Shown: one piece after another, positions 21,029 through 24,663 of the stretch | Position numbering within the stretch: the stretch's first letter is position 1 | How the letters are laid out: every line of letters begins with the position of its first letter | NCBI GenBank assembly: GCA_021821365.1 | Contig: JAKACN010000013.1 | Span: forward strand, 1-39,881 | Direction of reading: 5' to 3' | Origin: Pseudomonadota bacterium | GTDB taxonomy: Bacteria; Pseudomonadota; Gammaproteobacteria; Burkholderiales; Burkholderiaceae_D | Length of the DNA: 39,881 nt | Position numbers and translations under genes: made by a program | Notes under the pieces: model-generated | Database searches by the model: none | Seen by the model: only the letters and a program-made list of their open reading frames with translations | Told to the model about the DNA's origin: nothing

Positions 21029-21541
21029 TCACGGGAACGCCGGGATGTGCGGCTCCATGCCGCCGAACCTGGCTTCCGGATGACGTTTGAGCACCAGCTG
21101 CTCCGTTTCCGTGACACGCCGGTTCGGCACATCGATCATCAGAAGGACTTGCCCTCGCTCCATCGCCGCCTCGAAAGCTTTCAGGCGGGAATTGGGGATG
21201 GCAGCCGCCACCATGCCGGAGGCCCAGGCGCCGAACAATGCGCCGACGATGCCCGCGACCAGGACTGCGATCATCTGCAGACGCACCCCCTCCGGAGGGA
21301 ACAGAACGAGCAGCGCGCCGCCGACAAGGCCGATCGCGCCGCCAATCAGCATGCCGGACTCGGCGCCATGCACCAGGTCGGTTTTCTGCAGGAAGCTGGC
21401 CTCCGGCATGTCGGGAAGCGGAGTGCCATCCTTTGCACAAAAGTGGATGTACCGCTCCTCGATGCGGGCAAGCAGCAACTCGTCCAGCAGGCTGCGGGCA
21501 CTCGGAACGTCCGGCAGCATGAAATAGAGCCTGCGGCGCAT
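21029..21541 (-). CDS. DUF1269-type membrane protein
   Basis: A 170-residue protein that resembles the DUF1269 family. The soluble N-terminus (MRRRLYFMLPDVPSARSLLD) is ferredoxin-like in rhythm. Two glycine-rich hydrophobic segments follow (about 64-82, MLIGGAIGLVGGALLVLF; about 89-113, MIAVLVAGIVGALFGAWASG), then IPNSRLKAFEAAMERGQVLLMIDVP and a C-terminal tail ending EPHIPAFP. Glycine-zipper-like helices suggest membrane packing. Function is unknown. A strong AAGGAGG lies just upstream of ATG 21541. Confidence 0.8.
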   Translation of the reverse strand: MRRRLYFMLPDVPSARSLLDELLLARIEERYIHFCAKDGTPLPDMPEASFLQKTDLVHGAESGMLIGGAIGLVGGALLVLFPPEGVRLQMIAVLVAGIVGALFGAWASGMVAAAIPNSRLKAFEAAMERGQVLLMIDVPNRRVTETEQLVLKRHPEARFGGMEPHIPAFP

Positions 21542-21682: not shown

Positions 21683-22744
21683 TTACTCCGATTCGTGCAG
21701 ACGGCGTTGCCTGACCGCGTCTGCCAGCCCTTCCAGGATCGTCACACTGGATTCCCAGTCGACGCAACCATCCGTGATCGACTGCCCGTATGTCAGCGGC
21801 TTGCCGGGAACCAGGTCCTGCCGGCCGCCGACCAGGTGCGACTCGACCATCACGCCGACGATACGTGTATCTCCGCTGGCAATCTGGCGCCCGATATCGG
21901 CGCAGACGGGAACCTGGTTTTCCGGCTTCTTGGAGCTGTTCGCATGGGAGGCGTCGATCATCAGGCGCGATGCCAGGCCGTTGGCCGCGATGTCCTTGCA
22001 GGCAGCATCGACGCTCGCCGCGTCGTAATTCGGCGCCTTGCCGCCACGCAGGATGACGTGGCAATCCTCATTGCCGTTGGTCGACACGATGGCCGAGTGC
22101 CCGCCCTTGGTGACCGACAGGAAGTGGTGCGGCTGGGACGCCGCCTTGATCGCGTCGACTGCGATCTTGATGCTGCCGTCGGTGCCGTTCTTGAATCCCA
22201 CCGGGCAGGACAAGCCGGACGCGAGTTCGCGGTGGACCTGCGATTCGGTGGTGCGCGCGCCGATCGCGCCCCAGCTGATGAGATCGGCCACATACTGCGG
22301 ACTGATCACGTCGAGGAATTCTGTGCCTGCCGGCAAGCCCAGCTCATTGATGTTCAGCAGCAGCTCGCGCGCCATGCGCAGGCCCTCGTTGATGCGGAAA
22401 CTGTTGTCCATGTAGGGGTCGTTGATCAGGCCCTTCCAGCCCACCGTGGTGCGCGGCTTCTCGAAATACACCCGCATCACGATTTCCAGGTCGCCGATGA
22501 AACGCTCGCGCTGCTCCGCTAGCCGGCGCGCATATTCCATCGCTGCCTTGGGATCATGGATCGAGCACGGACCGATCACGACCATCAAGCGGTCATCCTG
22601 ACCGTGCAAGATGCGATGCAAGGCGGTACGGGAGTCGGCAACGGTCGTTGACGCCTTGTCCGTGCAGGGGAATTCGCGAATGAGGTGCGAAGGTGGCGCG
22701 AGTTCTTTCAATTCTCGTATCCGTAGGTCATCGGTGCGCGGCAT
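21683..22744 (-). CDS. 3-deoxy-7-phosphoheptulonate (DAHP) synthase, class I
   Basis: First step of the shikimate pathway: phosphoenolpyruvate plus erythrose-4-phosphate to DAHP. The 353 residues match the AroF/G/H family, with GPCSIHD (58-64; metal-binding Cys60), RVYFEKPRTTVGWKG (Arg91, Lys96) and late motifs SVTKGGHSAIV and MIDASHANSSKKPENQ. I cannot decide from sequence alone which isozyme it is, so no symbol is given; the leader peptide rich in Phe and Tyr codons suggests response to those two amino acids. I chose ATG 22744 because CCGGAG precedes it; an upstream alternative adds nine unconserved residues. An attenuator lies directly upstream (22790-22926). Confidence 0.95.
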   Translation of the reverse strand: MPRTDDLRIRELKELAPPSHLIREFPCTDKASTTVADSRTALHRILHGQDDRLMVVIGPCSIHDPKAAMEYARRLAEQRERFIGDLEIVMRVYFEKPRTTVGWKGLINDPYMDNSFRINEGLRMARELLLNINELGLPAGTEFLDVISPQYVADLISWGAIGARTTESQVHRELASGLSCPVGFKNGTDGSIKIAVDAIKAASQPHHFLSVTKGGHSAIVSTNGNEDCHVILRGGKAPNYDAASVDAACKDIAANGLASRLMIDASHANSSKKPENQVPVCADIGRQIASGDTRIVGVMVESHLVGGRQDLVPGKPLTYGQSITDGCVDWESSVTILEGLADAVRQRRLHESE

Positions 22745-22789: not shown

Positions 22790-22817
22790 AAAAAACCGCC
22801 ATCGCTGGCGGTTTTTT
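22790..22817 (-). terminator. Attenuator terminator (segments 3:4) of the DAHP synthase gene
   Basis: Perfect 12-base-pair stem AAAAAACCGCCA (22790-22801) with TGGCGGTTTTTT (22806-22817), loop TCGC. Read on the minus strand the stem ends in six T followed by CTTTTTC. It lies 45 bases before the DAHP synthase ATG, so it must be read through for expression. Confidence 0.9.
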
Positions 22818-22900
22818 CTAGAAATTCGGTTCGAGCTCTCTTCTATTCGTGCGCTTACCGCTTTTCCACCGCCATGGGGCTGGAATAGCTAAAGTGGAAA
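22790..22900 (-). promoter_or_regulatory. Phe/Tyr transcription attenuator
   Basis: Four mutually exclusive segments can be drawn on the minus strand. Segment 1 TTTCCAC (22894-22900, inside leader codons 10-11) pairs with segment 2 GTGGAAA (22863-22869, codons 20-22). The overlapping segment-2 sequence TGGCGGT (22868-22874, codons 18-20) pairs with ACCGCCA (22806-22812), the left arm of the terminator. Segments 3:4 form the terminator at 22790-22817. Ribosome stalling at the aromatic codons (3-14) would leave segment 2 free and permit the antiterminator. This is a paper model. Confidence 0.75.
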
Positions 22901-22926
22901 TAAAAGTAAAAGCGCGCGAAAGTCAT
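22855..22926 (-). CDS. Aromatic-rich leader peptide of the DAHP synthase attenuator
   Basis: A 23-residue open frame beginning MTFARFYFYFHFSY; of residues 3-14, five are Phe and three are Tyr, far beyond chance composition. It ends at TAA (22855-22857), 37 bases before the terminator stem. This composition and position are those of a leader peptide whose translation senses charged tRNA-Phe and tRNA-Tyr, as in pheA-type attenuators. No good Shine-Dalgarno sequence precedes ATG 22926, which is the main weakness; the promoter in 22927-23060 is not evident either. The product itself is expected to have no other role. Confidence 0.8.
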   Translation of the reverse strand: MTFARFYFYFHFSYSSPMAVEKR

Positions 22927-23060
22927 GTTTTTCAGAGGTTTTGCAGAAAATCTAGATGAATAGTGCAATAAATAATGGGGTTTTGCAAGGGATCAGGGCG
23001 AATTTTGTCTCTGCCGCAGGAAAAATCATGGTTTCCGAGGCGAAAGGGCGGCCTCCCCGA

Positions 23061-24521
23061 TCAAGCCGTCCCGCCCACCGTCACGCCTTCGATCCGCAGG
23101 GTCGGCTGGCCGACGCCAACGGGGACGCTTTGCCCTTCCTTGCCGCACACGCCGACACCGCTGTCCAGCCGCATGTCGTTGCCGATCATGGACACCCTGT
23201 TGAGTACATCCGGGCCGTTGCCGATGAGTGTGGCGCCCTTGACCGGATAGGTTACCTTGCCGTCCTCGATCATGTAGGCTTCGCTCGCCGAGAAGACGAA
23301 CTTGCCGTTGGTGATGTCGACCTGGCCGCCGCCGAAATTCACGGCATACAAGCCATTCTTCACGGAAGCGATGATCTCAGCCGGATCCTTGTCGCCGGCC
23401 AGCATGTAGGTATTGGTCATGCGCGGCATCGGCAGGTGCGCATAGGATTCGCGCCTCGCATTGCCTGTGACGGCCATCTTCAACAGGCGGGCGTTCATGG
23501 TGTCCTGCATGTAGCCTTTCAGGATGCCGTCTTCGATCAGCGTTGTGCACTGGGTCGGATTGCCTTCGTCGTCGATATTGAGTGAACCGCGGCGATTGGC
23601 GATGGTGCCGTCGTCCACGACGGTCACGCCCTTGGCCGCAACGCGTTCGCCGATGCGCCCGGAGAAGGTGCTGGAGCCCTTGCGGTTGAAATCGCCCTCG
23701 AGGCCATGGCCGATCGCTTCGTGCAGCAGCACGCCCGGCCATCCCGGCCCGAGCACCACGGTCATGGTCCCGGCCGGCGCAGGACGCGCATCGAGGTTGA
23801 CGATGGCCGCCTCAACTGCCTCGGTGGCATAGCGCTCCAGCAGTTCGTCGCTGAAATAGCCATAATCGTAGCGACCGCCGCCGCCGCTGGAGCCGATTTC
23901 GCGACGACCGTTCTGTTCGGCAATCACCGTCACCGAGACACGTACCAGCGGGCGGATATCCGCGGCTAACACGCCGTCGCTGCGTACCACCAGCACGACA
24001 TCGTATTCGCCCGCCAGGCCGGCCATCACCTGCACCACGCGGGGATCGCGCGCGCGGGCAATACGCTCGACCTTTTCAAGAAGCTTCACTTTCGCCGTGG
24101 CGTCGAGCGAAGCCAGGGGATCGTTCGGCAGATACAAGGAACGCCCCCCCGCAGTCTGTATCGACGACGCGACCTTGACCTTGCCCGCACCCTGGCGCGC
24201 GATGGTGCGCGTGGCCTCCGCCGCCTGCAGCAATGCGCTTTCGGAAATCTCGTCCGAATAGGAAAAGGCCGTCTTGTCGCCGGATACCGCGCGCACGCCG
24301 ACACCCTGGTCAATGGAGAAGCTGCCTGTCTTGACGATGCCCTCTTCCAGGCTCCAGCCCTCGTTTTTCGTGAACTGGAAGTACAGGTCGGCGTAATCGA
24401 CACGGTGGCTGAAAATCGCATCCAGTGCCTTGATCAGCTTGCCTTCATCCAGGCCGAAAGGCGCAAGCAGGATATCGCGGGCAACGGCAAGGGTTTGAAG
24501 ATTCGGTTCGAACGGATTCAT
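23061..24521 (-). CDS. tldD: Metalloprotease TldD
   Basis: Subunit of the TldD/TldE (PmbA) heterodimeric metallopeptidase, which cleaves unfolded peptides and in E. coli matures microcin B17 and degrades CcdA. The 486 residues match the family (481 in E. coli). The zinc motif HEAIGH lies at 267-272 within [15 protein letters not shown]. The [23 protein letters not shown] stretch and the C-terminal glycine-rich [19 protein letters not shown] are typical. I chose ATG 24521; an upstream TTG adds six residues. The partner gene tldE is not in the window. It lies downstream of the nitrilase-family gene and yhdP on the same strand. Confidence 0.96.
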
Positions 24522-24663
24522 GGGATTGGTGCGCGCCAATGGCGCGAATTCGGATTGGTCAATGCAATAGATTGTAGAGCATCTGTCTGCGCTCTGGTTT
24601 CTTCGAACGTGCCGCTCGAAAAAAAGAACGCGCCGGCAGAAGTCGTTTTCCCGCAGGAACGCG

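Follow-up and report, generated by a model that had tools for sequence, protein, structure and literature searches.

A candidate ribosome-mediated attenuator with Phe and Tyr codons upstream of aroG-type DAHP synthase genes in Burkholderiales

The leaders of enterobacterial pheA and pheST combine a Phe-rich peptide, alternative hairpins and an intrinsic terminator, all of which are shared with the aroG leader described here, and in attenuators of the ilvGMEDA, ilvB and thr type a single leader serves several amino acids of one pathway. Upstream of aroF in Acholeplasma, the uORFC-13-1 motif, comprising a Phe uORF and a terminator, has been proposed; according to the passages that describe it, the motif occurs in Acholeplasma and in environmental sequences and includes one or more Phe codons together with an RBS (PMC8632094). 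The same passages cite a 1980 paper as having hypothesized attenuation of E. coli aroF (PMC8632094). In the relevant section of another report, trpL of Sinorhizobium meliloti is presented as a leaderless attenuator, with the transcript starting with the leader ATG (PMC7298713). Putative attenuators of tyrA-holding operons, including two Vibrio DAHP synthase-tyrA operons, have also been listed (PMC1173090); because the part of that survey concerned with these attenuators is limited to tyrA operons, it is silent on lone aroG genes. Among the literature matches listed, no title or abstract opening names an aroG leader in Burkholderiales, although the comparative studies regarded as classic, Panina 2001 and Vitreschak 2004, may predict one.

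The DNA considered here is a stretch of 39,881 nucleotides (the window), on the minus strand of which the following features were delineated.

23061-24539, minus strand: tldD, just upstream of the promoter and leader
22960-22988, minus strand: predicted sigma-70 promoter, TTGCAA / 17 nt / CACTAT (sequence prediction)
22855-22926, minus strand: leader ORF, MTFARFYFYFHFSYSSPMAVEKR plus stop, 23 codons, from the ATG at 22926 to the stop at 22855
22894-22900, minus strand: TTTCCAC, strand 1 of the initial annotation, partner of GTGGAAA in the predicted fold of the window, not conserved
22878-22886, minus strand: conserved strand 1, ATTCCAGCC, UUCCA[G]CC pairing with GGUGGAA
22858-22874, minus strand: strand 2, TGGCGGTGGAAAAGCGG, with strand 1 or, through TGGCGGT, strand 3 as partner
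22820-22831, minus strand: AACCGAATTTCT, which supplies the 3' arm within the antiterminator interior
22790-22817, minus strand: intrinsic terminator with loop GCGA, formed by AAAAAACCGCCA (strand 3) and TGGCGGTTTTTT (strand 4)
21683-22744, minus strand: aroG-type DAHP synthase gene, with a GGAG site and ATG within 22755-22742

The product of the downstream gene was identified as an AroG-type DAHP synthase (NF006723, 594.7 bits vs. a cut-off of 568). An ORF of 170 aa that follows aroG (21029-21541, minus strand) has no NCBIfam match. The leader contains eight aromatic codons among residues 3-14 and is not preceded by a Shine-Dalgarno sequence, while the terminator, found 37 nt past the leader, is a perfect 12-bp hairpin with a 4-nt loop and a T run closing the 3' arm. 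TGGCGGT at 22874-22868, within strand 2, is identical to part of the distal arm of the terminator, and the GGAAA and CGGT of strand 2 can also pair with AACCGAATTTCT inside the antiterminator. Upon recounting, the coordinates and letters given by the initial annotation for the leader, its eight aromatics, the 37-nt spacing, the 12-bp hairpin, TGGCGGT and TTTCCAC all proved exact.

Taken alone, the comparison with shuffled sequences makes the aromatic ORF suggestive only. When the 319 nt upstream of aroG were shuffled by dinucleotides, an ORF with eight aromatics in 14 residues arose in 5 of 2000 cases, and when frames of 12-45 aa were ranked across the whole window, the top two were the leader and the same frame begun at an upstream TTG (eight aromatics each), with the next frame holding six. 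What settled the observation was the conservation of the core motif and terminator in relatives. A search with the DAHP synthase yielded the best 80 of 574 loci, nearly all from Oxalobacteraceae as judged by record title (Noviherbaspirillum, Herbaspirillum, Collimonas, Undibacterium, Massilia, Duganella, Janthinobacterium and others, with some metagenome bins being named otherwise or more broadly), and in 79 of these 80 named loci the core motif and terminator lie upstream of aroG. The exception, L057, was excluded, such that the 79 loci and the window make up the Oxalobacteraceae set of 80 leaders. In 70 of the 80, a TTGC[CA]A / 16-19 nt / CACTAT- or TATAGT-like pair is found upstream.

The peptides of the Oxalobacteraceae set are mostly alike, with an aromatic run ending in FYFS being followed by S[SN]P.AVE. 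In seven of the 80 (L060, L075, L078, L091, L094, L096 and L100), a different frame encodes the peptide end and the RNA is mostly unchanged; the tail thus looks to be kept as RNA and not as peptide. Across 64 distinct leaders of this set sharing the common frame, variation shows no excess at the third codon position (0.287, 0.288 and 0.276 for the three positions). The upstream region of L081 holds two copies of TTTTTACTTTAGCT, exact or nearly so, one upstream of the leader ATG and one inside the leader, as if the control region had been duplicated in part.

To follow the leader outside its family, we built from 55 leaders a covariance model (R1), which was used in searches blind to the downstream gene. 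At E <= 0.01, R1 matched 81 of 399 Burkholderiales genomes, and 52 of the 54 full-length matches outside the family lay upstream of aroG (18/18 for L126-L143 and 34/36 for L144-L179). Matches situated elsewhere, namely, L159 and L177 (full-length) and L180 and L181 (partial), were left out of the resulting set of 52 other-family Burkholderiales loci. Within the genome containing the window, R1 detected one full-length copy, together with three other rows at E <= 10, all partial, one of which corresponds to the terminator on the opposite strand. A further model (R2), built from 60 diverse leaders, matched 105 of the 399 Burkholderiales genomes at E <= 0.001, 27 of 121 genomes of a second order (that of genome G441) at E <= 0.01 and 7 of 274 genomes across the class at E <= 0.001. 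An aroG homologue lies downstream of 66 of 71 further loci (all but L233, L265, L270, L287 and L288; L189 and L193 are the same places as L183 and L184). The locus checks left aside further partial R1 matches, as well as G803 and G813 (R2, order of G441). The frame beside aroG in L184, which we take by eye to be GroEL-like, suggests that the order of G441 is Xanthomonadales.

An aromatic ORF is present in each of the 132 loci considered together (79 named, the window and 52 other-family loci), and 130 of them hold at least five aromatics in 14 residues, the exceptions being L166 and L178; frames rich in aromatic codons are thus a property of the homologous leaders, one of the comparative points to check that the initial annotation had named. 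The best frame falls below five aromatics in three of the 66 further aroG loci (L236, L255 and L260). In these three and in L178, all detected upstream of aroG by the models, the best frame offers just 2-4 aromatic codons, possibly reflecting frames that are decaying or were misread.

No such leader precedes the second DAHP synthase gene of the same genome (C318, 52% identity), where the best upstream frame offers four aromatics in 50 residues. The same holds for the 28 best-matching DAHP synthase loci of the class outside the order of G441 (L291-L318, drawn from a class search in which 77 of 104 genomes gave a DAHP synthase match), where the best frames hold 0-5 aromatics in 14 residues. Two of these loci were considered as candidates and set aside: L293 reaches five aromatics through the Trp run GRWSWRRWW (equaled in 0/100 shuffles) but offers no hairpin with a T run, whereas L299 has a GC hairpin and T run, yet just three aromatics. 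Elsewhere, an ORF ending in CFFYFSFFSPALGG stands together with a GC hairpin ahead of a DAHP synthase gene of another family (L234:1400-1830; product 35% identical to that of the window), perhaps representing a distant or independent aromatic leader; the T stretch of its hairpin is only short. In G056 (L289 / L348 / L349), two aroG copies stand in tandem, with the leader before the first copy and the second copy following after a short gap.

Upstream regions of aroG were also compared by lineage. The leader was found in seven of eight further regions from the family, all but L336, and was absent from 10 of 10 regions from other families picked for having no R2 match. On a first aroG tree, the leader appeared as a single clade with two changes of state, a result that was discarded, given that the other-family Burkholderiales rows there had been chosen as leader-bearing. 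The tree was thus enlarged with 11 leaderless and five leader-bearing aroG copies from other families and one leaderless copy from the family. On the enlarged tree of 123 aroG proteins, from which 12 partial proteins were excluded and for which support values come from a quick search, leader state requires eight changes, many rows having been picked for having the leader; such a pattern points to patchy loss or gain. Leaders of the G441 order fall within Burkholderiales aroG at two positions of the tree, and this nesting suggests that aroG may have moved between orders along with its leader.

As a matter of sequence, it is certain that the leader carries Phe and Tyr codons as its putative control codons, these being found in 132 of 132 leaders. 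Trp codons appear in 39 of the 132 (14/80 and 25/52), and in the G441 order all three aromatics are encoded by 24 of 24 leaders of full length; Trp sensing is therefore likely in some lineages only. Under the picking rule, 14 of the 80 frames start with TTG or GTG, and use of the nearest in-frame ATG alters only the Trp count, from 17 to 14. In the aromatic run of 36 other-family leaders, the first codon position varies less than does the second (0.386 vs. 0.611), as would be expected of changes among TTY, TAY and TGG.

The spacing of these codons was next related to the pairing strands. The distance between the ribosomal A site and the leading edge of the ribosome is about 14 nt. In 69 of the 132 loci (44/80 and 25/52), 14 nt separate the start of the last aromatic codon from strand 2, such that a ribosome waiting at that codon would be predicted to hide strand 1 and to end just short of strand 2. 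Stop codons end 8 to 46 nt after the start of strand 2, i.e., in or past that strand, and a ribosome halted at the stop codon would be predicted to cover it. The spacing of both the aromatic codons and the stop codons agrees with stalling.

When start sites were scored for a Shine-Dalgarno sequence, GGAG, GAGG or AGGA preceded only 4/79 and 6/49 leaders, as compared to 75/80 aroG starts. The lack of such a sequence, initially seen as the weak point of the annotated attenuator, is hence borne out as a trait of the whole leader family. Promoters were scored for 78 of 80 leaders in the Oxalobacteraceae set and for 52 of 52 from other families. In the former, the gap that separates the leader start from the predicted -10 box has peaks of 25 and 33 nt, with the window showing 33 nt; in the latter, the peak is at 6-8 nt (26 of 52), with the start codon then expected at roughly +1 to +3 of the predicted transcript. 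In three Duganella loci (L091, L096 and L075), the predicted -10 box, TATAGT, is separated from the leader ATG by 6 nt, and the transcript is predicted to begin at or adjoining the start codon; in three others (L070, L095 and L106) the gap is instead 26 nt. In L044, a gap of 4 nt is seen together with a poor -10 box.

The capacity of the leader RNA to adopt alternative structures was considered by folding, with strand 4 left out. In the unmasked leader of the window, TTTCCAC pairs with GTGGAAA, as had been proposed for the 1:2 hairpin. That part of the proposal stands for the window itself, but TTTCCAC is present at that place in only 2 of 80 leaders, i.e., those of the window and of L043; the strand 1 that is conserved is UUCCA[R]CC, directly following the aromatic run. 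When the first 45 or 50 nt were hidden, strand 2 paired with strand 3 (-23.1 and -22.7 kcal/mol, respectively), with an inner helix formed by GGAAA and CGGT with AACCGAATTTC, and when 57 or 60 nt were hidden, the 2:3 pairing was lost. Single folds of 55 leaders without strands 1 and 4 gave the outer 2:3 helix in 52-55 cases, with the inner helix being variable. In a dereplicated set of 60 loci, the antiterminator interior was more stable than its shuffles (mean z -1.07 for 21 loci and -1.03 for 39 loci; 50 of 60 negative), whereas the 1:2 hairpin showed no extra stability over versions in which its 5' part had been shuffled (mean z -0.10 and -0.33, respectively).

The same 60 loci were used in arm swaps, in which the arms of each locus were compared with those of others. 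Own arms proved better for 1:2 (z -4.5 for the outer arms and -4.1 with the core), 2:3 (z -6.4), the antiterminator interior (z -7.6) and 3:4 (z -10.8), as against -1.3 and +0.4 for pairs from control regions. Inside the Oxalobacteraceae set alone, where the letters hardly vary, the 1:2 swap was flat (z -0.5). As arm swaps leave the relatedness of the loci in place, columns slid by 1-3 positions served as a second test. Here, 98.3% of cells were paired for 3:4 and 81.0% for 2:3, as compared to at most 55.5 and 55.2%, respectively, after sliding. Cells with a two-sided change exceeded every shuffle (29 vs. 8.0 for 3:4; 20 vs. 10.7 for 2:3), although pairs showing a two-sided change, two in each case, were no more numerous than in shuffles. 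Because the GGCGG core had served to locate strand 2 (placed by hand in L135 and L178, as was the terminator of L178), independent evidence for 2:3 comes from the flanks only, where, out of 60 rows, pair 81:175 is unpaired in 23 and pair 87:169 in 43. At position -1 of strand 2, which lies on the opposite flank from 87:169, a T-A or C-G pair with strand 3 is seen in 36 of 52 other-family loci, as compared to 20.7 expected upon shuffling. The mutually exclusive 1:2, 2:3 and 3:4 pairings thus co-vary across the 60 loci in arm swaps, which was the comparative check proposed with the initial annotation. The parts, spacing, conservation and covariation described above are read directly from the sequences, and two other features by which leader-peptide attenuators are recognized, namely, an ORF with end-product codons and an intrinsic terminator before the first gene, are both present.

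These results point to a ribosome-mediated transcription attenuator of aroG that would read charged tRNA-Phe and tRNA-Tyr and, where leaders hold Trp codons, tRNA-Trp as well, a reading to which we assign a probability of about 0.9. The original interpretation, textbook attenuation at a DAHP synthase gene, is supported at this level. From the arrangement of the leader, we infer transcription start, leader translation, stalling, termination and read-through as follows. With aromatics plentiful, the ribosome would run on as far as the stop codon, situated within strand 2 or just beyond it, and cover that strand, leaving strands 3 and 4 to form the terminator. With Phe or Tyr in short supply, the ribosome would stall in the aromatic run and cover strand 1; strand 2, now free, would form a long antiterminator with strand 3, allowing polymerase to read into aroG. 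More tentatively, and at slightly less than even odds, a single leader, mostly devoid of a Shine-Dalgarno sequence and leaderless in many lineages, may read all three aromatics and have travelled with aroG from Burkholderiales to a second order.

Other explanations can be weighed against this evidence. Were the hairpin simply to end the tldD transcript, with the ORF being an accident of a T-rich spacer, the location of tldD just upstream on the same strand and the 5 in 2000 shuffles that reach eight aromatics would be accounted for. Such a terminator would not, however, explain the promoter-like pair that 70 of 80 loci carry ahead of the leader or the persistence of the leader in 79 of 80 named relatives and across families despite diverged letters, nor would it need co-varying 1:2 and 2:3 arms, rendering this account highly improbable. 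Arrest by the nascent peptide, with the tail FYFS[YN]S[SN]P.AVE stalling the ribosome on a ligand, as in the examples of TnaC and SecM, draws on the strong conservation of that tail in the Oxalobacteraceae set. Still, with the tail being read in a different frame in 7 of 80 loci where the RNA is mostly intact, and with tails differing in other families, RNA pairing fits and a peptide motif does not; we consider arrest to be very unlikely.

That ACTTTAGC and GGCGGTGGA are highly conserved in nucleotides could alternatively mean that the leader RNA binds a metabolite or protein, with the ORF being incidental. In our reading, though, the strongly conserved letters are largely aromatic codons and switching arms, and the lower variability of the first than of the second codon position in the 36 other-family leaders likewise speaks for a translated run. 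Moreover, no Rfam family reached its gathering score in the window (Phe_leader, RF01859, scored 20.3 bits vs. 55 on this strand), and a binding RNA accordingly seems most improbable. A search of plasmids matched no similar DNA. Lastly, a released short RNA or peptide might act in trans in addition to attenuation, as do rnTrpL/peTrpL of Sinorhizobium meliloti, a precedent found in the relevant section of PMC7298713; we deem this unlikely.

Should attenuation of aroG be confirmed, it would offer a testable answer to the question of how many Burkholderiales may control aromatic amino acid flux at the transcript level. The targets for mutation (start codon, control codons, pairing arms) are now specified, and the covariance models find the leader in other genomes. 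The leader would also provide a natural case of leader-peptide initiation that is Shine-Dalgarno-less and possibly leaderless.

In terms of known systems, comparison lends good support to the view that this is textbook leader-peptide attenuation of a known kind, acting on a target, DAHP synthase, that has hardly been described. The initial annotation could cite no DAHP synthase under the control of a joint Phe/Tyr leader, a doubt partly answered by the Phe uORF proposed before the Acholeplasma DAHP synthase gene. Compared by description only, uORFC-13-1 resembles the aroG leader in placing a Phe uORF and a terminator before such a gene, both being predictions, but differs in being found in other organisms and in having an RBS (PMC8632094). 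As described in the pertinent section of PMC7298713, S. meliloti trpL relies on Trp codons and is linked to trpE(G); the aroG leader, by contrast, is leaderless by promoter prediction only, and in a part of the family that does not include the window. Relative to the Phe_leader of pheA and pheST, the aroG leader precedes another gene and includes Tyr codons in 132 of 132 and Trp codons in 39 of 132 loci. Finally, whereas attenuators of the ilvGMEDA, ilvB and thr type read branched-chain amino acids or Thr/Ile, the aroG leader would read aromatics and, on the more tentative reading in which it senses all three, would be the aromatic counterpart of the branched-chain ilv attenuators, situated at the entry enzyme of the common pathway.
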